Positions 4,241-43,078 of a DNA stretch of 64,000 bases are shown here, one piece after another (within the stretch, counting starts at the first letter, position 1; the number at the start of each line of letters is the position of its first letter). The notes beneath the pieces were generated by a model that did no database searches, had not been told where the DNA came from, and saw only the letters and a program-made list of their open reading frames with translations. Location: NCBI RefSeq assembly GCF_040732315.1, contig NZ_CP160388.1:3438494-3502493 (forward strand). Direction: 5' to 3'. The translations under genes and the position numbers were made by a program. The DNA comes from Oryzisolibacter sp. LB2S (GTDB lineage: Bacteria > Pseudomonadota > Gammaproteobacteria > Burkholderiales > Burkholderiaceae_C).

Positions 4241-4329
4241 CCGTCATCCCCGCGCAAGCGGGGATCCAGGTGCCACACAAGCAGTTGCTTCGTCACTGCG
4301 GTGGATCCCCGCTTGCGCGGGGATGACGG
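4241..4329. repeat. 89-bp REP doublet (REPIN-like), copy 1
   Basis: Two 28-bp arms, 4241-4268 and 4302-4329, are perfect inverted repeats of each other, separated by 33 bp. Each arm is itself a hairpin: CCCCGC, tetraloop GCAA, GCGGGG, flanked by CCGTCAT and ATCCA. The same layout (28-33-28) recurs at 12324-12412. This fits a REP doublet (REPIN) of the kind mobilised in trans by RAYT transposases; no RAYT gene lies in the window. It abuts the gene remnant at 4180-4240. Confidence 0.88.
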
Positions 4330-4347: not shown

Positions 4348-5163
4348 CTACTTGAGCCGTTTCTGAAGCACGCGACAGCCCAGCTGCCGCAGATCCTGCG
4401 CAAACGCATCGGACATCAGGTAGGCAAACTCCACGGGCCGCTGGCGGCCTATGGCGTCGCCCTCGACCTCGGCGGACGCGGGGTGGCACATGATCAGGCC
4501 GCCCTCGCCCATCTGGGCAAGCCAGGCGCGCATGTGCGCGCCGTAGGCCTCGGGGCTGGGCGCGTCAAAGCCGTAGACGCCGCCAAAGCCCTGGTTCATG
4601 GCCAGGCCCGCGCGGCGCAGCCTGCGTGTGGTCGTCCAGCCGCCCAGCAGCGCGATGACGCCGGCCTTGGGGTCGCGCCACAGCGCGCCCGCGGGCGCCG
4701 TGGAGCGCACCCAGGGCAGGTTCTGCGCCCCATAGCGCCGCCGCAGCTCGGCCAGCATGGCCGCGCGCACGCCGGGCAGTTGGTGCACATGCTGGTGGCC
4801 GTCGACATAGTCGGGCGGCGCACCGATCGCGTCCTCGAACGCGTCGAGCTGCGCGCGCCAGGCGTCCTGCACCCGCGCGGGCGCCAGGCGCCGCAGATAG
4901 GCCGCGGCCAGCAGCGGGCCGAGCGCGCGCGCCTCGCAGGCGCCGCCGTGGGACTCGGTAAGGTTGAAGTGCAGGCCCAGCTGCAGGCGCGCGCGCAGGG
5001 GCAAAAGCCGTGGCGCGGCGGCGCGCCAGCCGGGGGCGGTGGTCATGCAGCTCGTGGCCGACAGGCGGCCGGCCTCGGCCAGGCGCAGCACGGCCTCGTC
5101 CACCAGCGGATGCAGCGCGTAGTCGTCGGCGCAGAGGATCAGGCCGCGGCCGGCGCCGTTCAT
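4348..5163 (-). CDS. YdjC/ChbG/HpnK-family deacetylase (NaxD / LgmC-like)
   Basis: A 271-residue carbohydrate deacetylase of the YdjC-fold family. Metal-site motifs are present: CADDY near residue 11, HFNLTE near residue 65, and DGHQHVH near residue 120. Members remove N-acetyl groups from chito-oligosaccharides (ChbG), hopanoid glucosamine (HpnK) or undecaprenyl-phosphate hexosamine (Francisella NaxD, Bordetella LgmC). The neighbours decide between these: its ATG overlaps the stop of the gtrA-like gene (ATGA), and that gene is coupled to a GT2 synthase and a GT39 transferase. So deacetylation of a lipid-carrier-linked GlcNAc or GalNAc before transfer to lipid A is the favoured role. Family certain; substrate inferred from context. 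Confidence 0.87.
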   Translation of the reverse strand: MNGAGRGLILCADDYALHPLVDEAVLRLAEAGRLSATSCMTTAPGWRAAAPRLLPLRARLQLGLHFNLTESHGGACEARALGPLLAAAYLRRLAPARVQDAWRAQLDAFEDAIGAPPDYVDGHQHVHQLPGVRAAMLAELRRRYGAQNLPWVRSTAPAGALWRDPKAGVIALLGGWTTTRRLRRAGLAMNQGFGGVYGFDAPSPEAYGAHMRAWLAQMGEGGLIMCHPASAEVEGDAIGRQRPVEFAYLMSDAFAQDLRQLGCRVLQKRLK

Positions 5164-5576
5164 GCGCGCCTCCGAAAGGCCCAGAACTTGGCCAGCACAA
5201 AGGTGGCCAAGGCCACCAGCACCAGCACGCCGGCCAGGCTCCACAGGTAATGCCAGTGCAGCCAGTCGAGGGCGATGGCGTAGAGCAGCTCGTTGGCCAC
5301 GAAGGACAGGCAGGCCACGGCAAAGTAGCGCGCCACCACGCCCCAGCCGCGCGCACGCGCGCTGGCGAAGGTGAGCAGCGCGTGGCCGTTGTAGCTCACG
5401 ACGAAGGCCACGAGAAACGCCAGCACGTTGGCGACGAGCGGCGCCATGCGCGTGGCCTGCACGAGCAGCGCCACCACCGCCAGATGCGTGGCCGCCGCGC
5501 AGCCGCCCACGACCACGAACTGCAGCGGCTGGGGCAGCAGCGCCAGGCGCCGCGCCAGAAGGCTTGCCACGCTCAT
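5160..5576 (-). CDS. GtrA-family membrane protein (candidate polyprenyl-P-sugar flippase)
   Basis: A 138-residue protein with four hydrophobic helices, the size and layout of GtrA. The family is thought to flip polyprenyl-phosphate-linked sugars across the inner membrane. It ends in a short basic tail (FWAFRRR), as GtrA proteins do. The start codon overlaps the stop of the upstream GT2 gene by ATGA, and its own stop overlaps the start of the deacetylase gene the same way, so the four genes are translationally coupled. In the lipid A modification model it takes the place of ArnE/ArnF or Bordetella LgmD. Flippase activity of GtrA is inferred in the literature rather than proven. Confidence 0.85.
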   Translation of the reverse strand: MSVASLLARRLALLPQPLQFVVVGGCAAATHLAVVALLVQATRMAPLVANVLAFLVAFVVSYNGHALLTFASARARGWGVVARYFAVACLSFVANELLYAIALDWLHWHYLWSLAGVLVLVALATFVLAKFWAFRRRA

Positions 5577-6610
5577 GCGTCGCGCCAGGGGCTGCGGTCT
5601 TCGTCGCGCGCGACGACGTAGGTCGGGCGCTGCTTGACCTCGTCGTAGATGCGCCCGATGTACTCGCCCAGGATGCCGATGGACATGAGCTGCACGCCCG
5701 AGAACAGCATGATGCCGGCCGCCAGCGTGGGCCAGCCGGCCACGCTGACACCGAACAGCAGGGCGTCGAGCGCGATCCACAGGCCGTACAGCAGCGCCAG
5801 CGCGGCGACCATGGCGCCGACGATGCTCCACATGCGCAGCGGCAGCGTGGTGAACGATGTCAGGCCCAGCAGCGCCAGCGAGCCCAGGCTGCGCAGGCTG
5901 AAGCTCGACTGCCCGCCAGCGCGGTCGAGCGGCACGAATGGCAGGGCCACGGAGCGAAAGCCCACCCAGGCGTACAGCCCCTTCATGAAGCGGTGGTGCT
6001 CGGGCAGGGCGTTGAGGGCGTCGGCCACGCGCCGGTCCATCCAGCGGAAGTCGCCCGCATGGGGCGGCACCTTGACCTTCTTGCCGGCGTTGAGCAGGCC
6101 GTAGAACACACCCGTGCCCAGGCGCTTGGTGCCGCTCTCGGCGGCGCGGTCAGCGATCACGCCGTAGACCATGTCATAGCCCGCGAGCCACAGCTCGTGC
6201 ATCTGCGGCAGCAGCTCCAGCGGGTGCTGGAAGTCCGCATCGATGAGCAGCACGGCATTGCCGCGCGCATGCGCCAGTCCCGCGGACAGCGCCGCCTCCT
6301 TGCCGAAGTTGCGCGACAGGGCCAGGTAGCGCAGCGGCAGCTCGGCAGCCAGGCGCAGCGCGATATCGTGCGTGGCATCCCTGCTGCCGTCGTTGACGAC
6401 GATGATCTCGAACTCGGGCGTGAGCCGCTGCACCGCCTGCGCGAGCGCACGCACAAAGGCCTCGAGGGTGCTCTCCTCGTTGTGCGCGGGCACCACGCAG
6501 CTCAGGCGCAGGGGCGCACGCGGCAGCGGGGCCGGCGGCGCGGCCGGCGCGTATTCGGCGTAGTAGTCGCTGCGCGGTGTGACGCGGTAGGGGGCGGCGG
6601 ATTCGGTCAT
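5573..6610 (-). CDS. GT2-family glycosyltransferase (polyprenyl-phosphate sugar synthase, GtrB/ArnC-like)
   Basis: A 345-residue inner-membrane glycosyltransferase. An N-terminal Pro/Ala-rich tail of about 30 residues is followed by the GT-A fold opening VVPAHNEES (about 39-47), the nucleotide/metal motif DADFQHP (from residue 124), and two C-terminal transmembrane helices (about 235-255 and 270-295). This architecture matches GtrB, ArnC and DPM1-like enzymes, which load a sugar from a nucleotide donor onto undecaprenyl phosphate. Its start overlaps the stop of the GT39 gene (ATGA) and its stop overlaps the start of gtrA. With the deacetylase downstream, the donor is probably UDP-GlcNAc or UDP-GalNAc, but the sequence alone does not show it. 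Confidence 0.9.
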   Translation of the reverse strand: MTESAAPYRVTPRSDYYAEYAPAAPPAPLPRAPLRLSCVVPAHNEESTLEAFVRALAQAVQRLTPEFEIIVVNDGSRDATHDIALRLAAELPLRYLALSRNFGKEAALSAGLAHARGNAVLLIDADFQHPLELLPQMHELWLAGYDMVYGVIADRAAESGTKRLGTGVFYGLLNAGKKVKVPPHAGDFRWMDRRVADALNALPEHHRFMKGLYAWVGFRSVALPFVPLDRAGGQSSFSLRSLGSLALLGLTSFTTLPLRMWSIVGAMVAALALLYGLWIALDALLFGVSVAGWPTLAAGIMLFSGVQLMSIGILGEYIGRIYDEVKQRPTYVVARDEDRSPWRDA

Positions 6611-8238
6611 GGCGGCGATTGTCCCAAGGATTCTTCCAAGTCTTGACCCGCACTGGCGTGTGCGGGGGCGGCATCGACGTCATAGACCGCATAGGCCCAG
6701 GCCTGCGGGCGCGGAAAGCGCCAGCCGCTGCGCTGCAGCCGCAGCACATGGGGCCGTGGTGCCTGGCCGCGCGCGGCCAGCCAGTCCTGCGCCTGCCGCT
6801 GGCAATCGGTGGCCGGCTGCGGCGTGGCCACGGGCCCCAGCGGGCACAGGAGCAGGCCGTTGTCCCGCCGCCAGTCGCCCAGGGCCGACAGGCGCGCGAT
6901 GTCGGTATCGGGCAGGCCCGGTATGGTGAGCAGATGCGGCTGTGCGTAGAAGGCCAGCATGGCGTTCTCGGCCCAGTCGCCGCCCACCCAGGCCAGCCGC
7001 TGGCCGGGGTGGCGCGCCTGCCATTCCTGCACGATGGCGCGCGCGGCATCCTGCGTGGGCCGGTAGTAGCCCCTGTCGCCGCGCAACGCGCTCACCGTGG
7101 CCGCCACCACGCCCAGCAGCAGCACCACGGCCAGCACCGGCCACCAGGCGCGCGCCAGGCGCTCGCGCACCCGGTCGGCCGCCGCTGGCGCCTGCTGCTG
7201 CAGGTTGCGCAGCCACAGCAGCGCAAACGCATAGCCGATCGGTATCGCCCAGGGGGTGGACAGCTCCACCACGCCGGCCACGCCAAAGGCCAACGTCAGC
7301 GCCCAGGGCATGAAGGCGAGCCAGAACAGCACGTCGCTGCCGCCCTGCGGCCACCAGCTGCGCAGCAGCAGGCGCGCGGCCAGGCGCGGCCAGGGCGTGC
7401 CGTCGTGGCGCGCCTGCACGCGTGCCCAGACCAGGCACAGCGCAAGCCAGGCCGGCAGCCAGTAGAACAGCGGCGCGAGCGCAAAGCGCGCCACATAGCG
7501 CCAGGACGCACGCCCGCCGCCCTGGTCCATGGCATAGCCCAGCGGCGCCCAGTCGTGCGAGGCCACCCAGGCCAGATGGGGCCAGAGCGCCAGACCGAAC
7601 ACCGCCAGCGCCAGATAGGGCCGGGGCGTGGCCAGCCAGCGCCGGCCGTCCGGGTGCACAAGAATGGGCAGCAGAAAGCCCGCCAGGAACACCCCGCTGT
7701 AGTACTTGCTGAGCATGCAGGCCGCGGCCACCAGGCCCAGCCAGGCGCTGAACCAGGCGCCGCGCCAGCCGCGCTCCTGCCAACTTGCGAGCAGCAGCGC
7801 CGCGGCCCAGGGCCAGAGCGACAGCAGCTGGCTGTTGGCGTTGAACTTGCCCGCCAGATTCGTGTAGGGCAGGCTCCACAGCAGGAGCAGCGCACCCCAG
7901 GGCGCGAGCGCCCCGAGCTTCAGGCGTCGCCCCAGCGCCCACACGCCGAGCAGCCCCACGAACACGTTGGCGTAGGACAGCAGGCGGTAGGCCAGATCGT
8001 TCTGCGGCAAGAGCGCAAACCACAGCCCCACCACCCAGGCGAAGAACGGCGGGTGCTTGTGCGTGCCCCAGCGCAGCGGCTGGGACCAGGCGTAGTTCTC
8101 CAGCATGTCGTTGTAGCCGTCGAGGTTGGCGCTGGCCAGCCAGGACACGCCGGCCCAGACCAGACAGGCGCCGACAAGCCAGAACAGGACGCGGGGCGCG
8201 GGCGCGGCAGCAGTTGCCAGGGAAGCGGAGGAGGACAT
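6607..8238 (-). CDS. ArnT-like GT39/PMT family glycosyltransferase
   Basis: A 543-residue multi-spanning membrane protein with about 12 hydrophobic helices and a soluble C-terminal part. The first periplasmic loop carries the acidic, aromatic segment NLDGYNDMLENYAWS followed by WGTHKHPPFF, typical of the PMT_2/ArnT superfamily, whose catalytic residues lie in that loop. Such enzymes move a sugar from undecaprenyl phosphate onto lipid A, protein or glycan in the periplasm. It is the first gene of a four-gene ATGA-coupled operon, with a GT2 synthase, a flippase and a deacetylase after it. That set is what lipid A hexosamine modification needs (FlmK in Francisella, LgmB in Bordetella). Acceptor identity is inferred. 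Confidence 0.86.
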   Translation of the reverse strand: MSSSASLATAAAPAPRVLFWLVGACLVWAGVSWLASANLDGYNDMLENYAWSQPLRWGTHKHPPFFAWVVGLWFALLPQNDLAYRLLSYANVFVGLLGVWALGRRLKLGALAPWGALLLLWSLPYTNLAGKFNANSQLLSLWPWAAALLLASWQERGWRGAWFSAWLGLVAAACMLSKYYSGVFLAGFLLPILVHPDGRRWLATPRPYLALAVFGLALWPHLAWVASHDWAPLGYAMDQGGGRASWRYVARFALAPLFYWLPAWLALCLVWARVQARHDGTPWPRLAARLLLRSWWPQGGSDVLFWLAFMPWALTLAFGVAGVVELSTPWAIPIGYAFALLWLRNLQQQAPAAADRVRERLARAWWPVLAVVLLLGVVAATVSALRGDRGYYRPTQDAARAIVQEWQARHPGQRLAWVGGDWAENAMLAFYAQPHLLTIPGLPDTDIARLSALGDWRRDNGLLLCPLGPVATPQPATDCQRQAQDWLAARGQAPRPHVLRLQRSGWRFPRPQAWAYAVYDVDAAPAHASAGQDLEESLGQSPP

Positions 8239-12323: not shown

Positions 12324-12412
12324 CCGTCATCCCCGCGAAGGCGGGGATCCACAGCAGTGACAAACCAAGGATTGGGGTGACGCCTGGATCCCCGCCTTCG
12401 CGGGGATGACGG
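12324..12412. repeat. 89-bp REP doublet (REPIN-like), copy 2
   Basis: Arms 12324-12351 and 12385-12412 are perfect 28-bp inverted repeats with a 33-bp spacer, the same dimensions as the copy at 4241-4329. Each arm folds as CCCCGC, GAAG, GCGGGG. The spacer, read on the opposite strand, matches the first copy's spacer at 22 of 33 positions, including a shared GTCACTGC, so this is a second copy of the same element in the other orientation. It lies between the binding-protein gene and rep. The other bases of the 206-base gap show no gene. Confidence 0.9.
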
Positions 12413-31249: not shown

Positions 31250-32005
31250 TCAGCTGCTGGCGGGCGACTGCAGGTACAGATCCGCCAGGCGCCTGCGCGC
31301 CGCATCGCCCACCCCCAGGCTGCGCTCCAGGTACGACGGCACGCCGCCATGGTCGCGCTCGACGGCCTGCAGCGCCGCCTCCAGAAAGCCCTCCTGCACG
31401 GTCCAGATCACGTCCAGCACCTCGTCGGGGGTAGAGCTGCCGACGGCGGCAGGGCGCCGATACAGCCGGTTGGTGAGCAGGTAGTCCTCCATCACGGTCG
31501 AGCGCGGCACACCGAGCGCCAGCAGGATCAATGCCGCGGCAAAGCCCGTCCTGTCCTTGCCCGCGGTGCAGTGAAACACGAGCGGCGTGTCCTCGGACAG
31601 CAGTTGCTCGAACAGCCCCGCGAACTGCCGCGCATTGTCCGAGACGAAGGCGCGGTAGGTGTCCTGCATCCACTCGACCGCCACCGATGCCGTCATGCGC
31701 TGGCCGGCCTGCGCCATCTCCCGGGCCCGCTCGGCCACGACGGGCTCGATGGGAAGCGCCTGGTAGCGCACATGGGGCAGCTCGTAGGCCAGGGCCGCGC
31801 TCTCGGCCCGGCCGCGCAGATCCACCGCACGCTGCAGCCCCAGGGAGGCCAGCACATCCCTGTCCCGCGGCGTGAGCGTGGCCAGATGATCGGACCGGAA
31901 GATCGTGCGCCAGCGCACCACGCGGCCGTCGGCGGCCCGGTAGCCGCCGAGGTCACGGAAGTTGGAGGCGCCCGTCAGCAAATGCGATCGCGAGAAATCA
32001 TTCAT
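31250..32005 (-). CDS. Tyrosine/serine protein phosphatase (Y_phosphatase3 family)
   Basis: A 251-residue dual-specificity-type phosphatase. The P-loop is HCTAGKDRTG with the catalytic Cys near residue 146. The N-terminal signature TGASNFRDLGGYRAADGR and the FRSDHLATLT that follows are typical of this family, which also acts on phosphoinositides in some bacteria (LipA-like). Start ATG 32005; a GTG six bases earlier is possible. No signal peptide is visible. It converges on the HU terminator. The HsdS remnant lies 45 bases upstream on the same strand. Confidence 0.88.
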   Translation of the reverse strand: MNDFSRSHLLTGASNFRDLGGYRAADGRVVRWRTIFRSDHLATLTPRDRDVLASLGLQRAVDLRGRAESAALAYELPHVRYQALPIEPVVAERAREMAQAGQRMTASVAVEWMQDTYRAFVSDNARQFAGLFEQLLSEDTPLVFHCTAGKDRTGFAAALILLALGVPRSTVMEDYLLTNRLYRRPAAVGSSTPDEVLDVIWTVQEGFLEAALQAVERDHGGVPSYLERSLGVGDAARRRLADLYLQSPASS

Positions 32006-32050
32006 GGTCACGACTGTAGTGCGTTGCGCGAATCGACATCCGGCCCGCCA

Positions 32051-32200
32051 TCAGCCCGCGCAGGACGCATCCACCAGCGCCTGCGCCAGGCGGGACTGGG
32101 TGGCCTGCGCATCGGCCAGGCGCTGGCGCAGCTCGGCGCACAGGGCGCGCAGCTCGGTGACGCGGGCGACGATGCGGGATTGTTCGGGGAGGGGTGCCCC
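32051..32200 (-). pseudogene. C-terminal remnant of a type I restriction specificity subunit (HsdS)
   Basis: In the minus-strand frame ending at TGA 32051-32053 the translation reads PLPEQSRIVARVTELRALC, then AELRQRLADAQATQSRLA and QALVDASCAG. This is the last ~45 residues of a type I S subunit: the conserved P-L-P-x-x-E-Q-x-R-I-V segment after the second recognition domain, and the coiled-coil spacer with A-x-Q-S-R-L. No start codon, no recognition domains and no hsdM or hsdR are present. Upstream (to about 32315) the DNA has no recognisable coding. It lies between the phosphatase gene and tRNA-fMet, the classic place for an integrated island that has since decayed. This fragment and the hairpin at 32316 are all I see in the 32006-32357 gap. 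Confidence 0.7.
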
Positions 32201-32315
32201 CCGAAACGGTGCGTGTGGTAGCCAATACCCCGGCTGACGCCATGTGCAGGGACCATCTCACCGGTTGCCGGGCATGGCCCCGATTGCAGCAAACCTGCAG
32301 CGAGAATTCGTGGAG

Positions 32316-32349
32316 AACAAAAAAGGCCTGGCATTTGTGCCAGGCCTTT
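32316..32349 (-). terminator. Rho-independent terminator downstream of tRNA-fMet
   Basis: Perfect 12-bp stem (AAAGGCCTGGCA / TGCCAGGCCTTT, 32322-32333 and 32338-32349) with a 4-base loop and a following T run on the minus strand. It probably ends the whole spc-alpha-tRNA transcript. Confidence 0.9.
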
Positions 32350-32357
32350 GATTGTTT

Positions 32358-32434
<77 letters not shown>

Positions 32435-32458
32435 GTAGACCGAAATTATATCACTGAT

Positions 32459-32848
32459 TTAGGCTTCTGCGCTGGAAGTATCGGCAACTTCGGGGCGATC
32501 CACCAATTCGACAAACGCCATTGGCGCATTGTCACCCACGCGAAAACCCATCTTCAGGATACGGGTGTAGCCACCGGGACGTGCCTTGAAGCGGGGCCCG
32601 AGGTCATTGAAGAGCTTGGTCACGCTGTCGCGGTCGCGCAGGCGGTTGAATGCCAGGCGGCGGTTGGCGACGGTGTCCTCCTTGGCCAGCGTGATCATGG
32701 GCTCGATGACGCGGCGCAGTTCCTTGGCCTTGGGGAGCGTGGTCTTGATGGCCTCGTGCTCGATGAGCGAGTTCATCATGTTCTGCAGCATCGCAAGGCG
32801 ATGCGAGCTTGTGCGGTTGAGCTTACGAAGGCCGTGTCCGTGGCGCAT
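32459..32848 (-). CDS. rplQ: 50S ribosomal protein L17
   Basis: A 129-residue large-subunit protein, last protein gene of the alpha operon. It begins [20 protein letters not shown], the universal L17 N-terminus, and has [20 protein letters not shown]. The tail after residue 115 (DTSSAEA) is short and acidic. It follows rpoA by 87 bases and precedes tRNA-fMet by 24. Confidence 0.98.
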
Positions 32849-32935
32849 GGTGCTTTCCTTATGAAAAATTAAATCGAGCAGCCGTATCAGGTACTGCCCG
32901 AGGCGCTGGCTCAAAAATGAGCCGGGAATTATAAC

Positions 32936-33931
32936 TTAACGCTTTTCGAGCCCGGCGGGCGGCCAGTTCTCGAGCTTCATGCCGAGCGTCAGGCCGCGGG
33001 ATGCCAGGACTTCCTTGATCTCGTTGAGAGACTTGCGGCCCAGATTCGGCGTCTTGAGCAGCTCGTTCTCGGTGCGCTGGATGAGATCACCGATGTAGTA
33101 GATGTTCTCGGCCTTGAGGCAGTTGGCCGAACGCACGGTGAGTTCGAGCTCGTCCACGGGACGCAGCAGGATGGGATCAAACGTGGCACCACCGGCCGCG
33201 CGAGGACCATCGGTGCCCGCACCGGGAATCTCGCCGCCATCGAGCTGCGCGAAGACGGCCAGCTGTTCGACCAGGATCTTGGCCGAAGCGCGCACGGCTT
33301 CCTCGGCGGTGATGGCGCCATTGGTTTCGATCTCCAGGACCAGCTTGTCCAGATCGGTACGCTGTTCGACGCGGGCGCTTTCCACCGTGTAGCTCACGCG
33401 CTTGACGGGGGAGAACGAGGCATCCAGCACGATGCGACCAATCGACTTGGTCGCCTCGTCGGCATAGCGACGCAGATTGCCCGGCACGTAGCCGCGCCCC
33501 TTCTCCACCTTGATCTGCATGTCCAGCTTGGCGCCAGCGGACAGGCTCGCGATCACATGGTCAGGGTTGATGATTTCCACATCGTGCGGCGTTTGAATGT
33601 CGCGCGCGGTGACGATGCCTTCGCCATCCTTGCGCAGGCTCAGCGTGACCTCGTCACGGTTGTGCAGCTTGAACACCACGCCCTTGAGGTTCAACAGGAT
33701 GTTGACCACATCCTCCTGAACGCCATCGATGGATGAGTATTCGTGCAGGACACCCGCGATGGTCACTTCGGTTGCTGCATAACCCACCATGGACGAGAGC
33801 AGAACACGCCGAATGGCGTTGCCCAAGGTGTGACCATAGCCTCGCTCGAAAGGCTCCAGTTCGACCTTGGCACGGTTGTGACCAAGTTGCTCGACATTGA
33901 TGGCCTTGGGTTTCAGCAAATTCGTTTGCAT
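32936..33931 (-). CDS. rpoA: DNA-directed RNA polymerase subunit alpha
   Basis: A 331-residue alpha subunit. The N-terminal domain (1-235) drives polymerase assembly: [20 protein letters not shown] is the signature. The C-terminal domain (about 250-320) contacts UP elements and activators and contains [14 protein letters not shown] and the helix-hairpin-helix [17 protein letters not shown] Gly/Ala-rich linker ([11 protein letters not shown]) joins them. It lies in the alpha operon between rpsD (113-base gap) and rplQ. Confidence 0.98.
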
Positions 33932-34044
33932 GCAGACTTCCTTCTCAATGCCCCCAGCTCGTTACACCGGTAAGGCTGATGCAGCGCCTAAACCGCGATG
34001 CCTCGCGGTTCAGGAGCAGATTACGCTAACAGTGATGTCAAGGA

Positions 34045-34668
34045 TTAACGCGAGTACAACTCAACGATCAGCGATTCGTTGATGTCTGCGCCAAACTGGT
34101 CGCGATCGGGCACTTGCTTGAACGTGCCTTCGACTTTGTCGACACTCACCTCGACCCACGAGGGCATGCCAACCTGCTGCGCCAGTTGCAGTGCTTCGAC
34201 GATGCGCGCTTGCTTCTTGGACTTTTCGCGCACGGCCACCACGTCACCTGCCTTGACCATGTAGGAGGCGATGTTCACGCTTTGGCCATTGACGGTAATG
34301 GCCTTGTGCGACACCAGCTGGCGTGCCTCGGCGCGCGTGGAGCCAAAACCCATGCGATACACGACGTTGTCCAGACGCGATTCAAGCAGTGCCAGCAGAT
34401 TGGCACCGGTGTTGCCGCGGCGGCGCTCGGCCTCGGCAAAGTAGCGGCGGAACTGCTTTTCCAGCACGCCATACATGCGCTTGACCTTCTGCTTTTCGCG
34501 CAGCTGCAGGCCGTAGTCCGACGTGCGCGAGCCCGACGTGCGGCCGTGCTGGCCGGGCTTGGAGTCGAACTTGGCCTTGTCGGCGATGGAGCGACGAGCG
34601 CTCTTCAGGAACAGGTCGGTGCCTTCACGGCGGGAGAGTTTGGCCTTGGGGCCGAGGTATCGTGCCAC
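34045..34668 (-). CDS. rpsD: 30S ribosomal protein S4
   Basis: A 207-residue primary 16S-binding protein. It begins [20 protein letters not shown] and contains the S4 RNA-binding domain ([28 protein letters not shown]). No zinc cysteines occur in the N-terminal region, as in the C-minus form. In other bacteria S4 represses its own alpha operon at the translational level; I see no specific leader motif. Confidence 0.98.
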
Positions 34669-34758
34669 TTGTATTTCCTTGAATTGTCAACTACCGCAGC
34701 AGGCTGCGGGAGCCACCATCGCACCAGGCGATCGGTGGCGGTGGGCTTACTGAAAGAA

Positions 34759-35163
34759 TCAGATACGGCGACGCTTCTGGGGGCGGCAGCCGTTGTGCGG
34801 GACCGGGGTCACGTCCGAGATGGAGGTGATGCGGATGCCCAGTGCGCCCAGAGCGCGCACCGACGACTCGCGACCAGGACCGGGGCCCTTGATTTCCACG
34901 TCGAGGTTCTTGATGCCCTGCTCCATGGCAGCGCGACCAGCGACTTCGGAAGCGACCTGTGCGGCAAAAGGCGTCGACTTGCGCGAGCCCTTGAAGCCCT
35001 GGCCACCCGAAGAAGCCCAGGACAAGGCATTGCCCTGGCGATCGGTGATCGTGATGATGGTGTTGTTGAAGGAGGCATGCACGTGGGCGATGCCGTCCGA
35101 GACGTTCTTGCGAACCTTCTTGCGCACGCGAGCGGCGGCGTTGTTGGCGGGAGACTTGGCCAT
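34759..35163 (-). CDS. rpsK: 30S ribosomal protein S11
   Basis: A 134-residue protein of the small-subunit platform. Characteristic stretches are [18 protein letters not shown] and the C-terminal [20 protein letters not shown]. The N-terminus is Lys/Ala-rich. It starts 15 bases after rpsM ends, and its 90-base gap to rpsD is empty. Confidence 0.98.
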
Positions 35164-35178
35164 AGTGTTCTCTCAGTC

Positions 35179-35544
35179 TTACTTCTTCAGTGCCGCTGCA
35201 CCCTTGCGCGGGCCCTTGCGGGTGCGGGCGTTGGTGCGCGTACGCTGGCCGCGCATCGGCAGACCACGGCGATGACGGAAACCGCGATAGCAACCGATGT
35301 CCATCAGGCGCTTGATGTTCATCGTGGTTTCGCGGCGCAGGTCACCTTCGATGGTGAACTGTGCGATCTGGTCGCGAATCTTCTCCAGATCAGCGTCGGT
35401 CAATTCCTTGACCTTCTTGGAATAAGCAATGCCGCAAGCCTCGCAGATCTTGCGAGCGCGGGTACGCCCGATCCCGTAGATGGCCGTCAGACCAATCTCG
35501 GTGTGCTGATGGGGCGGGATATTGATACCAGCAATACGTGCCAT
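35179..35544 (-). CDS. rpsM: 30S ribosomal protein S13
   Basis: A 121-residue small-subunit head protein at the A-B bridges. It begins [20 protein letters not shown] and ends with the basic [19 protein letters not shown]. First S-protein of the alpha operon, 23 bases after rpmJ. Confidence 0.98.
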
Positions 35545-35567
35545 GTGCGTCCTCTAATAATTCCCAA

Positions 35568-35681
35568 TCAACCTTGGCGCTGCTTGTGACGCTGATCCGT
35601 GCAGATCACGCGCACCACGCCCTTGCGGCGGATGATTTTGCAGTTGCGGCAGATTTTCTTGACAGAAGCCGAAACTCTCAT
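35568..35681 (-). CDS. rpmJ: 50S ribosomal protein L36
   Basis: A 37-residue protein, [20 protein letters not shown] then [17 protein letters not shown]. It has the zinc set C11, C14, C27 and H32, so it is the zinc-binding (C+) paralogue that folds into 23S rRNA. It lies between secY and rpsM. Many bacteria have infA here as well; the 156-base gap to secY contains none. Confidence 0.97.
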
Positions 35682-35837
35682 TGCATTCTCCTAAACTCTT
35701 GTCCAATCGTTCCGGCCACTTACTCGATGCGCGCGGAACACAAAATCAGTGCCCGCGATGGATCGAAGGGCATCAACAAACCGTTGCTCCTCAGGGGAAC
35801 CCGCGACTATAACGCATTCGCCCAAGGCATGTCGGTA

Positions 35838-37157
35838 TCAGGTACCTGGTGTCGTCTTGAAGTTGGCCTTCTTCAGCAGTGACTCGTACTGCTGCGACAT
35901 CATGTAATTCTGCACCTGGGCCATGAAGTCCATCGTCACCACCACGATGATCAGCAACGAGGTGCCGCCGAAATAGAACGGCACGTTGTACTTCAGGATC
36001 AGGAACTCGGGCAGCAGGCACACGAAGGTGATGTAGATGGCACCAGCCAGCGTCAGTCGCACGAGGATCTTGTCGATGTAGCGCGCCGTGTGCTCACCTG
36101 GACGAATGCCGGGGATGAAGGCCCCGCTCTTCTTCAGGTTGTCTGCCGTCTCGCGGCTGTTGAAGACCAACGCCGTATAGAAGAAGCAGAAGAACACGAT
36201 GGCGGCCGCGTACAGGATCACATACACGGGTTGCCCGGGCGTCAGCGCGGCGGAGATGTCGCGCAACCAACGCATGGACTCACCGGCGCTGAACCAGTTC
36301 ACGATCGTTGCAGGCAGCAGGATGATGGACGAGGCGAAGATCGGGGGGATCACGCCCGCCATGTTGAGCTTCAGGGGCAGGTGGGACGATTGCCCGCCAT
36401 ACACCTTGTTGCCCACCTGACGACGCGCATAGTTCACCAGGATCTTGCGCTGACCACGCTCGACAAACACCACGAAGTAGGTCACCAGACCGACGACGAT
36501 GACGATGAAGATGGCCGCCAGAATGCTCATCGCACCCGTGCGCACCAACTCCAGCAGACCGCCGATGGAGCTTGGCAGCCCGGCCGCGATGCCCGCGAAG
36601 ATCAGGATCGAGATGCCGTTGCCCAGCCCGCGCTCGGTGATCTGCTCGCCCAGCCACATCAGGAACATGGTGCCCGCGGTCAGACTCACCACGGCGGTCA
36701 GGCGGAAGCCAAAGCCCGGTGCGAGCACCAGGCCAGCGGAGCTTTCCAGCGCAACCGCAATGCCGAGCGACTGGAAGATCGCCAGACCCAGCGTGCCGTA
36801 GCGGGTGTACTGCGTGATCTTGCGACGGCCGGCCTCCCCTTCCTTCTTCAACTGCTCGAACGTCGGGAGGACGTAGGTCATCAGCTGCATGATGATCGAT
36901 GCCGAGATGTACGGCATGATGCCCAGCGCGAAGACCGTGAAGCGCGACAGCGCCCCACCCGAGAACATGTTGAACAGGTTGAGAATGCCGCCCTGCTGGC
37001 CGCTGAACAGCTGCTGCAACTGCGCGGGGTCGATTCCCGGGACGGGAATATGTGCCCCCACGCGGTACACCACCAACGCGAGCAACAAGAACACCAGTCG
37101 TCGGCGCAGGTCGCCGAACTTTCCGGTTTTTGCCAGTTGAGCTGCGTTAGTAGCCAC
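35838..37157 (-). CDS. secY: Protein translocase subunit SecY
   Basis: The 439-residue central channel of the Sec translocon, with ten hydrophobic helices. The N-terminal plug region is [20 protein letters not shown]; the loop [12 protein letters not shown] and C-terminal loops [20 protein letters not shown] (here with L-K-K-S) are typical. It follows rplO in the spc operon, as is universal, 23 bases after its stop. A long reversed, His-rich open frame on the plus strand is a composition artefact. Confidence 0.98.
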
Positions 37158-37180
37158 AGATGCCTTTCGTCAGAACCAAA

Positions 37181-37612
37181 TCAGGCCAGGCTGCCGCCAG
37201 CCGCCTCGATCGCTGCCTTTGCGCCGGCGGTCGCGCCGATGCCCGTCAGCTTGACGGCACGACTCAGCTCGCCGCTCTTGATCACCTTGACCACCTGGGC
37301 CAGGGCCGGCACGAGGCCAGCCTGCTTCAGAGCAAGGAGGTCGATCTCGGCCAGTTCCAGCGCATTCAGCGCCGACAGAGTGACCTCTGCGTTGAACTTG
37401 AGCGACTGCGACTTGAAGCCACGCTTGGGCAGGCGACGCTGCAAGGGCATTTGACCGCCCTCGAAGCCCACCTTGTGGTAGCCGCCGGAGCGCGACTTCT
37501 GGCCCTTGTGACCACGACCTGCCGTCTTGCCCAGGCCGGAACCGATGCCGCGACCGACGCGGCGCTTGGCGTGCTTGGCTCCTGCTGCGGGCTTGATGCT
37601 ATTGAGTTCCAT
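37181..37612 (-). CDS. rplO: 50S ribosomal protein L15
   Basis: A 143-residue protein that binds 23S rRNA late in assembly. The N-terminal glycine/arginine-rich [20 protein letters not shown] is the signature. Start chosen at ATG 37612, six bases after GAGG; an ATG three bases earlier exists. It lies 10 bases after rpmD. Confidence 0.97.
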
Positions 37613-37622
37613 CATCAACCTC

Positions 37623-37805
37623 TCAGAGGACTTTGACCAGATAGCTGATCTTGTTAATCATGCCGCGCACTTCGGGCGTGTCCTTGAGCTCGCTCACGCT
37701 GTTGAGCTTGCGCAGGCCCAGGCCACGCACGGTGGCGCGATGCGATTCCTTGGTGCCGATGGGGCTGCGCACCAGTTGAATCTTGATCGTTTGTTGCGTT
37801 GTCAT
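37623..37805 (-). CDS. rpmD: 50S ribosomal protein L30
   Basis: A 60-residue protein beginning [20 protein letters not shown] and containing [12 protein letters not shown]. The ATG at 37805 lies just after GGAGG. It follows rpsE by 14 bases in the spc operon. Confidence 0.97.
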
Positions 37806-37819
37806 TGATCGCCTCCCAA

Positions 37820-38341
37820 TCAAACGGCAAACAGGTCTTCGACCGACTTGCCGCGCTTGGCTGCCACTTCCGCCGGAGTGGTGGAATTGGCCAGAGCGTC
37901 GAAGGTGGCGCGGACCATGTTGTAGGGATTCGACGAACCATGGCTCTTGGCCACGATGTCGGTGATGCCCATGACTTCGAACACGGCGCGCATCGGGCCA
38001 CCGGCGATGATGCCGGTACCCTTGGGGGCCGGAGCCATCTGCACCACGGCGGCACCATGGTGGCCGGTCACGTTGTGGTGAATGGTGCCGTTCTTGAGCG
38101 ACACCTTCACCATGTTGCGACGAGCCTCTTCCATGGCCTTCTGCACGGCAGCGGGCACTTCCTTGGACTTGCCCTTGCCCATGCCGACACGGCCATCACC
38201 GTCGCCAACCACGGTCAGTGCAGCGAAGCCGAGGATACGACCGCCCTTCACGACCTTGGTCACGCGGTTGACCGCGATCATTTTTTCGCGCAGACCGTCG
38301 TCACGACCTTCGTCTTGCACCTTGGGGGTAAATTTAGCCAT
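37820..38341 (-). CDS. rpsE: 30S ribosomal protein S5
   Basis: A 173-residue protein involved in decoding accuracy and helicase activity at the mRNA entry. It contains [38 protein letters not shown] and [18 protein letters not shown]. Position between rplR and rpmD is standard. Confidence 0.98.
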
Positions 38342-38356
38342 TTCTATCCGCTCCGC

Positions 38357-38722
38357 TTAGAACTGCAGACCTGCTTCGCGGGCTGCGTCAGCCAGGGCCT
38401 TGACGCGGCCGTGGTAGGCAAAACCTGCGCGGTCGAAAGCCACCTTCTCAATGCCGGCAGCCTTTGCCTTTTCGGCAATGCGCTTGCCGATCAGCGTCGC
38501 AGCCGCGGTGTTGCCACCCTTGCCCGCTGCGCCCAGCTGGGAGCGCACCTCGGCTTCGACGGTGGACGCAGAGGCCAGCACCTTGGTGCCGCAGCCAGAG
38601 ATGACGGAGGCGTAGATGTGCAGATTGGTACGGTTCACCGACAGACGCGCAATGCCTTGCTGGGCAATACGGATGCGGGTCTGACGGGCACGACGGAGAC
38701 GCTGCTCTTTCTTGGTCAACAT
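38357..38722 (-). CDS. rplR: 50S ribosomal protein L18
   Basis: A 121-residue 5S rRNA-binding protein. It has [29 protein letters not shown], and the C-terminal [20 protein letters not shown] that closes every L18. It lies 11 bases after rplF. Confidence 0.98.
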
Positions 38723-38733
38723 GCTGCAGCTCC

Positions 38734-39267
38734 TTACTTCTTCTTGGTCTCTTTGATCACGACCTTCTCATCCGCATAGCGGATGCCCTTGCCCTTGTAG
38801 GGCTCGGGAGGACGAACGGCGCGAATCTCGGCAGCCAGCTGGCCCACCACCTGGCGGTCGGCACCCTTGATCACGATTTCGGTCGGGGTCGGGGTGGCGA
38901 CGGTGATGCCGGCGGGCATGTCGAAGTTCACGGGATGCGAGAAACCGACATTCAGGTTCAGCTTGGAGCCGGAGGCTGCGGCCTTGAAGCCCACGCCGAT
39001 CAGCGTGAGCTTCTTCTCGAAGCCCTTGCTGACGCCCAGCACCATGTTGTTCACCAGTTGGCGCACGGTACCGCTCATGGCATTGGCTTCGCGCGAGTCG
39101 TTCACGGGCTCGAAGCTCAGCTTGCCTTCGTTGCTGGAGACCTTCACGAGTGCGTTGCGGGCCAGCGACAGCGAGCCGCCTGCACCCTTGACACTGATCT
39201 GGTCGTCCTTGATGGACACATCCACGCCTGCGGGGATGGTCACCGGGGTCTTTGCTACACGGGACAT
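38734..39267 (-). CDS. rplF: 50S ribosomal protein L6
   Basis: A 177-residue protein near the sarcin-ricin loop, two repeated domains. It begins [20 protein letters not shown] and ends [20 protein letters not shown], the L6 signature. It follows rpsH by 24 bases. Confidence 0.98.
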
Positions 39268-39291
39268 TTCAGTCTTCTCCTCAATGCCACG

Positions 39292-39687
39292 TTAGGCGAC
39301 GTAGCAAAGCACCTCGCCACCGACACCGGTAGCACGCGCCTTGCGGTCCGTCATCACGCCCTTGGGCGTCGTGACAATTGCCACGCCCAGGCCGTTCATG
39401 ACCTGGGGAATGGAATCACGGCCCTTGTACACGCGCAGGCCGGGGCGGCTGACGCGCTCGATGCGCTCGATCACGGGGCGACCGGCGTAGTACTTCAGGG
39501 CGATTTGCAGTTCAGACTTGCCACCTTCGGTCTTCACTTCGAAGCCGTCGATGTAACCCTCGTCCTTCAGCACCTGCGCGATGGCGACCTTCACCTTGGA
39601 GGAAGGAACCGACACGGAGGCCTTGGACACCATTTGCGCATTGCGAATGCGGGTCAGCAAGTCAGCGATGGGATCACTCATGCTCAT
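39292..39687 (-). CDS. rpsH: 30S ribosomal protein S8
   Basis: A 131-residue 16S central-domain binder; in E. coli it is the translational repressor of the spc operon. It begins [20 protein letters not shown] and ends with [11 protein letters not shown]. Two starts are possible (39687, 39681); the longer matches the family. 21 bases from rpsN. Confidence 0.98.
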
Positions 39688-39708
39688 GTTGTATCTCTCC
39701 TGCTGCGC

Positions 39709-40014
39709 TTACCAGCTGGCCTTGGCGACACCGGGGATGTCGCCGGCAAATGCCAGTTCACGGATCTTGGCGCGGCCCAGACCGAATTGACGGAAGGTGC
39801 CACGGGGACGACCGGTGATTTCGCAACGGTTGCGCTGACGCGTGGGGTTGGCGTTGCGGGGCAACTTCTGCAGGCCCAGACGAGCGGCCTCGCGCTCTTC
39901 GTCGCTGCGCTTGGCATCGCCGGCAATTGCCTTCAGTTCCGCATACTTGGCAGCGTACTTGGCGGCCAGTTTTTCGCGCTTGAGTTCGCGCTGGATCAAA
40001 GCTACTTTAGCCAT
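39709..40014 (-). CDS. rpsN: 30S ribosomal protein S14 (zinc-free form)
   Basis: A 101-residue S14 of the long type without the CxxC zinc ribbon. It begins [20 protein letters not shown] and ends [20 protein letters not shown]. The only Cys is in [12 protein letters not shown]. It follows rplE by 10 bases. Confidence 0.98.
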
Positions 40015-40024
40015 TGCGCTGCCT

Positions 40025-40564
40025 TTAGTTCTTGAACGGGAAACGGAAACCAGCCAGGAGAGCCTTGGCCTCCTCGTCGGTCTTGGCCGTCGTGGTGATG
40101 CTGATGTTGAGGCCGCGCAAGGCATCCACCTTGTCGTACTCGATCTCAGGGAAGATGATCTGTTCTTTGACGCCGATGTTGTAGTTGCCACGGCCGTCGA
40201 AGGCGCGGCCGGAAATACCACGGAAGTCACGCACGCGCGGCAGGGCCACGGTCACGAAACGATCCAGGAATTCGTACATGCGGGCGCCGCGCAGCGTCAC
40301 CATGCAGCCAATGGCCTGGCCTTCGCGGATCTTGAAACCGGCGATGGCCTTCTTCGCCTTGGTGACCACAGGCTTCTGGCCGGCGATCTTGGTCAGATCG
40401 CCCACGGCGTTGTCCATGATCTTCTTGTCGGCCACGGCCTCGCTCACACCCATGTTCAGGGTGATCTTGGTCAGGCGCGGGACTTCCATGGTGGACTTGT
40501 AGCCGAACTTTTCCTTCAGTTCAGCGGCGATCTTTTCGCGATAGAGTTTTTGCAGTCGTGCCAT
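40025..40564 (-). CDS. rplE: 50S ribosomal protein L5
   Basis: A 179-residue 5S-binding protein. Key stretches are [39 protein letters not shown] and [15 protein letters not shown]. Third gene of the spc operon, 10 bases after rplX. Confidence 0.98.
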
Positions 40565-40574
40565 GTGCTACTCC

Positions 40575-40895
40575 TCAGGCGGCCTTGATTTCGGCGCCGC
40601 TGGACTTGTACACGCGCACGCGCGTGCCGTCGGCCTGCACCTTGATGCCCACGCGATCGGCCTTGCCGGTGGCGGCATTGAAGATGGCCACGTTGGACTG
40701 GTGGATCGGCATGGCCTTTTCCACGATGCCGCCGGTGGTGCCCTTCATGGGGTTCGGCTTGACGTGCTTCTTGACCAGATTGATGCCATCGATGACCAGA
40801 TGGGAGTCATCCTTGCGCAGCGTGACGGTGCCACGCTTGCCCTTGTCACGACCGGCGATGACGATGATCTCGTCGCCCTTGCGGATCTTGTTCAT
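40575..40895 (-). CDS. rplX: 50S ribosomal protein L24
   Basis: A 106-residue assembly-initiating protein with a KOW motif: [20 protein letters not shown]. It lies between rplN (9 bases) and rplE. Confidence 0.97.
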
Positions 40896-40904
40896 GGCGC
40901 TTCC

Positions 40905-41273
40905 TTAGAGAACTTCAGGAGCCAGGGACACGATCTTCATGAAGCGCTCGGTACGCAGTTCACGCGTCACGGGGCCGAAGATGCGGGTGCCGATGGGCTC
41001 CAGCTTGGCGTTGAGCAGCACGGCTGCATTGCCATCGAATTTGACGAGCGAGCCGTCGCCACGGCGAATACCCTTCGCCGTACGAACCACCACCGCACTG
41101 TAGATCTCGCCCTTCTTGACGCGACCACGCGGAGCAGCCTCTTTCACGCTCACCTTGATGATGTCGCCAACGCTTGCATAACGACGCTTGGAGCCGCCGA
41201 GCACCTTGATGCACAGGACGGACTTGGCGCCGGTATTGTCGGCAACCTCTAACCGAGATTCTGTTTGGATCAT
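40905..41273 (-). CDS. rplN: 50S ribosomal protein L14
   Basis: A 122-residue protein, first gene of the spc operon. It begins [20 protein letters not shown], the universal L14 N-terminus, so the start is ATG 41273. Normally rpsQ and the S10 operon precede it directly; here the upstream gene is glpD and a promoter of its own lies at 41437-41465, so the S10 and spc blocks are separated in this genome. Confidence 0.98.
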
Positions 41274-41436
41274 TTCAATATTCCCAACTTGCTCCAGCAC
41301 ATCCCAACAGCCCCAGAGAACCTCTCAAGGGCCGCGAGCAGCCAGTCAGTCTTGGGCCCGTCGTCCACACCGCAAACCATTTTGCGGCGCTTAACCGTCT
41401 GGGCAGAAACCTCGCGCATTTAACGCGAAGCCTGCG

Positions 41437-41465
41437 ATTGTCGTTGCACTCTCAGGAAAAGTCAA
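41437..41465 (-). promoter_or_regulatory. Sigma-70 promoter for the spc-alpha ribosomal operon
   Basis: On the minus strand: -35 TTGACT (41465-41460), a 17-base spacer, -10 GACAAT (41442-41437), about 165 bases before rplN. Five of six -35 bases match TTGACA and spacing is ideal. The -35 box overlaps the glpD stop codon (41462-41464). No other good promoter is seen before rplN. Confidence 0.7.
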
Positions 41466-43078
41466 GCGCCTGCACGATCGGCGTATCCGGGCAGCTGGCT
41501 GTACTGCTGCGCCAGCGCCACGAAGGCGGACAGCTGCGGGTCGCGGCCCAGCTCCTCCTGCAGGATGGCGGCCACGCGCGGCGCGAGCTCGGCGGCCCTG
41601 CGGGCGTCGAGGAACAGCAGACGGCTGCGGCGCGCCAGCATGTCCTCGACGGTGCGCGCGTATTCGAACCGGGCGGCAAAGCGCACCATGGCCTCGCTCA
41701 GTCCATCGGCCAGCCACTGATCGGCGCCGGGCAACTGCTGCACGCATGCCGCGTCGGCGCCGTAGGAATGCAGCCCCTGCGCATCGCACATGCGCTTGCG
41801 CTGCGGCTGCGCCGGGGCACCCACCAGCGCCAGCTGCTGCGTGACGCCGGCCGGACGCGCGGGCAACAGCTGCGCATCGAAGCATTTCTGGAGTACGTCC
41901 TCGGCCATCGCGCGGTAGGTGGTCCATTTGCCGCCGGTGACGGTGATCAGGCCGCTGCTGCTCACCAGCACCGTGTGCTCGCGGCTGATGGCCTTGGTGT
42001 TGCCGCCCTCGTCGTCCTGCGGCTTGACGAGCGGGCGCAGGCCCACCCAGATGCTGCGCACGTCCGAAGCAGCGGGCGCGCGGCGCAGGTATTTGGCGGA
42101 TTCGCTGAGGATGAAGTCCACCTCCTCCTTGAACGCCAGCGGCTCGCGCGCGAGGTCGTGGCGCGGACTGTCGGTGGTCCCCAGGATGAGCTTGCCCAGC
42201 CAGGGCACGGCAAACAGCACGCGCCCGTCGGCCGTCTTGGGCACGAGCAGCGCATGGTCGGAGGGCAGGAAGTCGCGGTCCACGACGATGTGCACACCCT
42301 GGCTGGGCGCAACCATGGGGCGCACGCTCTTGCCCAGGGCCTGGCCGTCCTGCTGGCGCAGCTCGTCCACCCAGACGCCCGTGGCATTGACCACGGCGCG
42401 CGCACGCAGCTCGAAGCGCCGGCCGGACTCCGCGTCCTCGCAGACCAGACCGACCAGCTTGCCCGCCTCGTGCAGCAGGCCGCGCGCGGGGCAGTAGTTG
42501 ACGAGCAGCGCGCCGCGGCCCGCGGCCGTGCGCGCAAGGGCCAGGGCCAGCCGCGCATCGTCGAACTGGCCGTCCCAGTACTTGACGCCACCCTTGAGCC
42601 CATCGGCACGCACCGTGGGCAGGCAGCGCAGGGTCTCCATGCGGCCCAGGAACTCGGTGGAGCCCAGACCCGCCTTGCCGGCCAGCGCGTCGTACATCTT
42701 GAGGCCCACGCCGTAGAACGGCGTCTCCCACAGCCTGTAGGAGGGCATGACGAAGGCCAGCGGCTGGGCCAGATGCGGGGCGTTGTGCAGCAGCGTGGTG
42801 CGCTCGTGCAAGGCCTCGCGCACCAGGGCGATGTTGCCCTGGGCCAGATAGCGCACGCCACCGTGCACGAGCTTGGTGGCGCGCGAGGAGGTGCCCTTGG
42901 CAAAGTCATGCGACTCCACCAGCACCACGGAAAAGCCCCGCGCCGCGGCGTCCAGCGCCACGCCCAGGCCCGTGGCACCACCGCCGATGACGGCGACGTC
43001 ATAGGTCTGCGGCTGGGCCAGGCGCGCCAGCAATGCGGCGCGGTCGGTGGCAGAGGGGGCTTCGGAATCGGTGGTCAT
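41462..43078 (-). CDS. glpD: Aerobic glycerol-3-phosphate dehydrogenase
   Basis: A 538-residue FAD-dependent inner-membrane enzyme that oxidises glycerol-3-phosphate to dihydroxyacetone phosphate and passes electrons to ubiquinone. The FAD-binding Rossmann motif is VAVIGGGATGLGVALDAAAR (about 28-47), followed by SHDFAKGTSSRATKLVHGG and RYLAQGN. The C-terminal domain contains the usual DLGPVLGADL-type loops. It lies on the same strand as, and 124 bases after, glpV, so it can be the last gene of the glycerol importer operon, but a palindrome at 43114 suggests its own promoter. Its stop overlaps the spc promoter. Confidence 0.96.
   Translation of the reverse strand: MTTDSEAPSATDRAALLARLAQPQTYDVAVIGGGATGLGVALDAAARGFSVVLVESHDFAKGTSSRATKLVHGGVRYLAQGNIALVREALHERTTLLHNAPHLAQPLAFVMPSYRLWETPFYGVGLKMYDALAGKAGLGSTEFLGRMETLRCLPTVRADGLKGGVKYWDGQFDDARLALALARTAAGRGALLVNYCPARGLLHEAGKLVGLVCEDAESGRRFELRARAVVNATGVWVDELRQQDGQALGKSVRPMVAPSQGVHIVVDRDFLPSDHALLVPKTADGRVLFAVPWLGKLILGTTDSPRHDLAREPLAFKEEVDFILSESAKYLRRAPAASDVRSIWVGLRPLVKPQDDEGGNTKAISREHTVLVSSSGLITVTGGKWTTYRAMAEDVLQKCFDAQLLPARPAGVTQQLALVGAPAQPQRKRMCDAQGLHSYGADAACVQQLPGADQWLADGLSEAMVRFAARFEYARTVEDMLARRSRLLFLDARRAAELAPRVAAILQEELGRDPQLSAFVALAQQYSQLPGYADRAGA

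Follow-up and report, generated by a model that had tools for sequence, protein, structure and literature searches.

A YdjC-linked operon of Oryzisolibacter sp. LB2S, predicted to make an undecaprenyl-phosphate amino sugar, carries a glycosyltransferase outside the LgmB/ArnT family

Four adjoining genes of Oryzisolibacter sp. LB2S, found in a stretch of 64,000 nucleotides analysed as a whole (hereafter, the window), raise the question of whether they encode a lipid A hexosamine pathway of the NaxD/Lgm type, as the initial annotation proposed, or whether a similar sugar donor is delivered to another acceptor. The description of these genes (GT39, GT2, GtrA and YdjC) as co-directional and joined by three ATGA overlaps was borne out: all three junctions (3/3) are exact and all four genes lie on the minus strand. 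Their Pfam scores are all well above cut-off. The features of the locus are the following:

4348..5163, minus strand: predicted YdjC-family (LgmC/NaxD/ChbG-like) deacetylase, 271 aa, Pfam YdjC 186 bits
5160..5576, minus strand: GtrA-type small membrane protein, predicted lipid-linked-sugar flippase, 138 aa, Pfam GtrA_DPMS_TM 79 bits
5573..6610, minus strand: predicted GT2 polyprenyl-phosphate hexosaminyl transferase of the LgmA-type clade, 345 aa, Pfam Glycos_transf_2 110 bits
6607..8238, minus strand: GT-C glycosyltransferase (GT39) of the 'KHPP' family (PMT_2), 543 aa, Pfam PMT_2 77 bits
8246..9262, minus strand: AEC-family transporter (Mem_trans, Pfam), upstream of the GT-C gene
4242-4267 and 4303-4328, no strand: 26-bp inverted repeat pair, an exact inverted pair just beyond the 3' end of the operon

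The host genome is complete (3.84 Mb) and encodes a single YdjC gene. At the operon locus, its closest named relatives are Alicycliphilus, Comamonas, Acidovorax/Paracidovorax and Delftia, which places the host very probably in the Comamonadaceae. The gene order GT2-GtrA-YdjC is repeated in Comamonadaceae, Methylophilaceae and others, and the arrangement is therefore not due to chance; among the relatives read, all three ATGA overlaps are kept only in one locus (L020), conservation being partial otherwise. The AEC gene ends 7 bp before the start of the GT39 gene and could be the first gene of the operon transcript. Most Comamonadaceae loci keep it in synteny regardless of the GT-C type, although about 400-500 bp separate the two genes in some relatives. 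The inverted repeat pair at 4242-4328, for which shuffled sequences give an expectation of 0, could be a terminator or a REP element. A second 26-bp inverted repeat pair is present at 12325-12411; the two pairs represent the repeat CGTCATCCCCGCGCAAGCGGGGATCC and a copy with 2 mismatches (0 expected by chance), and both are REP/BIME-like and sited at gene ends.

The donor half of the operon has its nearest counterparts in YdjC-linked loci. Indeed, a tree of 94 GT2 proteins, of a quick type and with long outgroup branches, gathers the 83 GT2s from YdjC-linked loci in a single clade (SH-aLRT 99), which includes the window GT2, those of the lgm-type loci of Achromobacter and Bordetella genomosp. 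13, and those of Methylophilaceae, while E. coli YfdH, sll0501 and ArnC fall outside. The 'lgm' label of these Achromobacter and Bordetella loci is based on species, gene order and the ArnT gene of B. holmesii, a 1590-bp gene of the lgm locus of that species (PMC5454989), and not on a B. pertussis sequence. The window GT2 thus groups with LgmA-kind enzymes, as had been anticipated. Against the PDB, its best match is GtrB sll0501 (5ekp; 2.5e-79, 270 bits), ArnC being more distant (6e-39, 137 bits), so that in its first label, 'ArnC/GtrB-like', GtrB is the nearer relative.

YdjC proteins include a chitooligosaccharide deacetylase and HpnK. The YdjC protein of the operon was aligned to Klebsiella ChbG (7vi8), and its residues D13, D14, H65, H123 and H227 correspond to D10, D11, H61, H125 and H206 of ChbG, of which D11, H61 and H125 are metal ligands and D10 and H206 are the proposed base and acid (PMC9402603). 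All five active-site residues (5/5) are therefore kept in this YdjC/LgmC-type deacetylase, and they are invariant in 105 homologues. The N-terminus of the protein (MNGAGRGLILCADDYALH) has no apparent signal peptide, which suggests that deacetylation would be cytoplasmic and would precede flipping. The GtrA gene is missing or antisense in some relatives, and for this reason its role is assigned by family only, as a putative flippase of the lipid-linked sugar. In the lgm-type loci of Achromobacter and Bordetella, an antisense GtrA-like gene lies between the LgmB-type gene and YdjC (7557-7990 in L058; most Achromobacter), an odd arrangement for one pathway.

The GT2 clade and the intact YdjC active site, taken together, make a donor route from Und-P-HexNAc to Und-P-HexN, followed by flipping, likely. 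In brief, the operon could act as follows: (i) the GT2 would load an N-acetylhexosamine from a UDP-sugar onto undecaprenyl phosphate, (ii) the YdjC protein would N-deacetylate this sugar in the cytoplasm, so that a cationic hexosamine results, (iii) the GtrA protein would flip the lipid-linked sugar, and (iv) the KHPP-family GT-C would transfer the hexosamine onto an envelope acceptor, LPS in the proposed scheme. Steps (i) to (iii) correspond to the donor half of Lgm/NaxD systems. It is considered probable that an amino sugar is built on undecaprenyl phosphate by the enzymes of the operon and then joined, in the periplasm, to a molecule of the envelope. The chemistry would be the same as that of FlmF2, NaxD and FlmK in Francisella. 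Among the papers covered by the literature search, none mentioned YdjC, GtrA and a glycosyltransferase together.

The nearest known systems share this logic and differ in their components. The Bordetella lgmABC(D) genes, which add glucosamine to lipid A and have relatives in Achromobacter, have a GT2 and a YdjC protein from the same clades as the operon and the same sequence of Und-P-HexNAc formation, deacetylation and GT-C transfer; however, gene order differs, GtrA is on the same strand in the window operon and antisense in the Achromobacter and Bordetella loci, and a KHPP-family GT-C takes the place of the LgmB-type GT-C, which is absent from the host genome (no match in a profile search). 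The Arn system of E. coli (ArnC, ArnD, ArnT, ArnEF) likewise combines a GT2 loader, a deacylase, a flippase and an ArnT-fold GT-C, whereas the window operon has YdjC for ArnD, GtrA for ArnEF, no arnA or arnB, and a GT-C without the RYA and YFxKP motifs. Membership of Arn was rejected, as PF02366 (PMT) has no Pfam match anywhere in the host genome. The operon would thus work like Lgm and Arn, and its membership of Lgm fails at LgmB.

Indeed, the window GT39 matches Pfam PMT_2 only, without a match to PF02366, which is matched both by E. coli ArnT and by the LgmB-type proteins of Achromobacter and Bordetella. The KHPP family is characterized by the invariant residues D44, E47, K61-H62-P63, N133, N135 and K178-Y179 (alignment A1). 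In hhalign comparisons, the window type and the KHPP types form one family (score 181, versus 64-67 with LgmB), the LgmB-only family scores 237 with ArnT, and the window/KHPP family has no detectable similarity to E. coli ArnT alone. Searches of the PDB gave only chance antibody matches for the window GT39 as a single sequence (phmmer) and no chain for the KHPP profile A1, whereas the LgmB-type profile A2 found ArnT (5ezm) at 1.8e-80; this profile included one E. coli ArnT row, which favours the ArnT match, and the hhalign result is independent of that row. RYA and YFEKP are functional motifs of ArnT (PMC5377068). The RYA/YFxKP motifs are present, in the forms RYx and [YF]FHKP, in 16/16 rows of the LgmB type; 0/31 KHPP rows have them, K-H-P being found instead. 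The expected grouping of GT39 with LgmB is thus contradicted, its nearest kin being the KHPP family.

The fold is better preserved than the sequence. The AlphaFold2 model of the window GT39 (pLDDT 86) has ArnT (5f15) as its best PDB match (TM 0.54, E 2.6e-07), ahead of oligosaccharyltransferases, compared with TM 0.76 and E 3.8e-22 against ArnT for the model of an LgmB-type protein (pLDDT 87). As ArnT is the top structural match, the fold of a polyprenyl-phosphate-sugar transferase is retained in the KHPP GT-C. The first label of GT39, 'ArnT-like', therefore holds at the level of the fold, that is, of the ArnT-fold GT-C superfamily, and not at that of the ArnT (PF02366) family with its motifs. 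As judged from sequences and a predicted model, the KHPP GT-C is a family separate from LgmB/ArnT with an ArnT-like fold.

The proposed NaxD/Lgm-type pathway consequently stands for its undecaprenyl-phosphate amino-sugar logic (GT2 clade and YdjC site) and is not supported for an LgmB-kind last enzyme (motifs, profile and hhalign). An Lgm/FlmK-kind pathway that places hexosamine on lipid A phosphates, with the KHPP enzyme in the role of LgmB and cationic-peptide resistance as its outcome, is nevertheless conceivable, though we hold it with some doubt. The donor half is common to the operon and the lgm-type loci, ArnT is the nearest fold to the KHPP GT-C, and the host genome has KHPP and no LgmB, so that KHPP could replace LgmB here. 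Furthermore, glucosamine is found on Achromobacter lipid A (PMC9927164), and several clinical isolates of Delftia, a cassette-bearing genus, are listed as colistin-resistant, an older isolate being susceptible (PMC12857265). However, KHPP lies outside the LgmB/ArnT family by sequence, motif and fold score, and the distribution of the two enzymes described below is not that expected under plain replacement. An LPS core or another acceptor seems about as likely as lipid A. A search of the literature for lipid A structures of Comamonadaceae found nothing helpful.

Among 151 genomes of the host's family, YdjC is present in 54, a KHPP GT-C in 36 and an LgmB-type GT-C in 39, with cut-offs (KHPP >200 bits, LgmB-type >400 bits) that were chosen after the tables had been viewed and with a natural gap at 136-216 bits. 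YdjC is present in 34/36 genomes with KHPP (p 2e-17; 1e-15 with one genome per genus, the only way in which phylogeny is handled in these p values) and in 38/39 genomes with LgmB. Profile A1 derives from YdjC-linked loci, which biases it toward YdjC-linked members; when genomes with KHPP near YdjC were removed, a test that lessens this bias and leaves some of it, YdjC was still present in 20/22 (p 4e-11). By comparison, YdjC is present in 0/12 genomes that have only weaker PMT_2 relatives. Outside the host's family, YdjC is found in 4/6 KHPP genomes versus 28/208 others (p 0.005).

KHPP and LgmB-type GT-Cs are both encoded in 25 genomes, and KHPP is therefore probably no simple stand-in for LgmB. 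In several of these, a single YdjC is flanked by both KHPP and LgmB-type genes (G021/L108, G031/L109, G112 and G125), likewise in G157, where the LgmB-type match is weaker, and a sister species of the host (G005) has an operon of the window type, its LgmB-type gene lying elsewhere in the genome. All of this is unexpected if the KHPP enzyme merely took the role of LgmB on lipid A. As one YdjC is flanked by both genes, the two enzymes probably draw on the same deacetylated donor.

The cassette relatives of the operon carry GT-Cs of several types: the window type (GT39w), KHPP25, KHPP16, Mb62 and the LgmB/ArnT type. A careful tree of 37 Comamonadaceae-type cassettes, based on concatenated GT2, GtrA and YdjC, is not tracked by the GT-C types. 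Indeed, the AU test rejects a single origin of KHPP25 (p 0.0002), well supported branches requiring at least 4 changes, and does not reject a single origin of GT39w (p 0.06). Exchange of the GT-C, or ancient duplication with losses, would either of them give this pattern. The Mb62-type GT-C, a weak PMT_2 match found with GT2-GtrA-YdjC in L062-L097 (Methylophilaceae, Azoarcus, Thauera and Methyloversatilis), is not detectably similar to ArnT or to the GT39 of the window.

A constant donor module with an exchangeable GT-C is a trait that these cassettes share with gtr-type systems, and a constant donor with a variable transferase, two transferases being present in one genome, fits an acceptor or site specificity residing in the GT-C. 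The operon could therefore serve a Gtr-like decoration of the LPS core or O-antigen, in which GT2, GtrA and YdjC would be the constant module and the GT-C the acceptor-specific part; we regard this as a reasonable possibility, at somewhat less than even confidence. The constancy of GT2-GtrA-YdjC beside the five GT-C types, the repeated changes of KHPP25 and the two GT-Cs alongside one donor set are consistent with it, as is the high score of the GT2 against the PHROG GtrB of O-antigen conversion (320 bits). The gtr operon of E. coli phages and prophages (YfdG-YfdH-YfdI, of the O-antigen glucosylation type) also combines GtrA, a GtrB-like GT2 and an adjoining variable GT-C. Unlike it, the window operon adds a YdjC deacetylase, its GT2 falls outside the YfdH (GtrB) clade, and its GT-C is unlike YfdI, the only gtr transferase compared (hhalign probability 0.2%), homology to which was rejected. 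In addition, no phage or serotype context was seen at the locus, and the unlinked KHPP genes have no conserved neighbours that could name an acceptor.

Attachment of the amino sugar to another envelope molecule, namely a phospholipid, a hopanoid or a protein, is rather improbable. The best NCBIfam match of the YdjC protein is the hopanoid-associated HpnK, far under cut-off, but no hopanoid genes were noticed beside the operon in the ORF lists. Protein glycosyltransferases are among the GT-C folds, although ArnT is placed above oligosaccharyltransferases in the structural matches. As for phospholipids, glucosaminyl phosphatidylglycerol is known in Pseudomonas (PMC12713373), and gpgSDF of Pseudomonas and hexSDF of Clostridioides resemble the operon in that sugar transfer is followed by deacetylation to give a cationic lipid; gpgSDF nevertheless has no GT-C, and its enzymes belong to other, unrelated families (GT4, COG3233, AglD2-type), for which reason homology of the operon to gpgSDF was rejected (PMC12713373).

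A more novel reading, put forward tentatively and at not quite even confidence, is that of a hitherto undescribed envelope decoration in many Comamonadaceae and some other Burkholderiales, in which one donor set (GT2, YdjC and flippase) would supply Und-P-hexosamine to at least two exchangeable GT-Cs, the site of KHPP being different from that of LgmB (Kdo or some other sugar of the LPS core, for instance, or else a second position on lipid A). The KHPP transfer step most likely uses a different acceptor or attachment site than LgmB/ArnT. If this decoration is real, the charging of Gram-negative surfaces with amino sugars would be modular: the donor would be shared, the transferases that determine the target could be swapped, and a genome annotation as 'ArnT/Lgm-like' need not imply modified lipid A. 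With the KHPP GT-C, a family of enzymes linked to YdjC in Burkholderiales now has a name and can be tested. The operon type is common in the host's family; the dissociation of donor and transferase can be tested and would correct routine annotation.

Two further observations concern the host genome. Its second PMT_2 gene lies in an exosortase-A-type polysaccharide cluster (L105, 3240000-3256000), which also contains wecB, wecC, a PEP_O_lig_1 ligase and a polysaccharide-deacetylase-like protein. Within the window, the GC content falls from about 0.70 to 0.60-0.63 at 32001-42000, where a cluster of the ribosomal-protein/rpoA/secY type is located (ORFs judged by eye).
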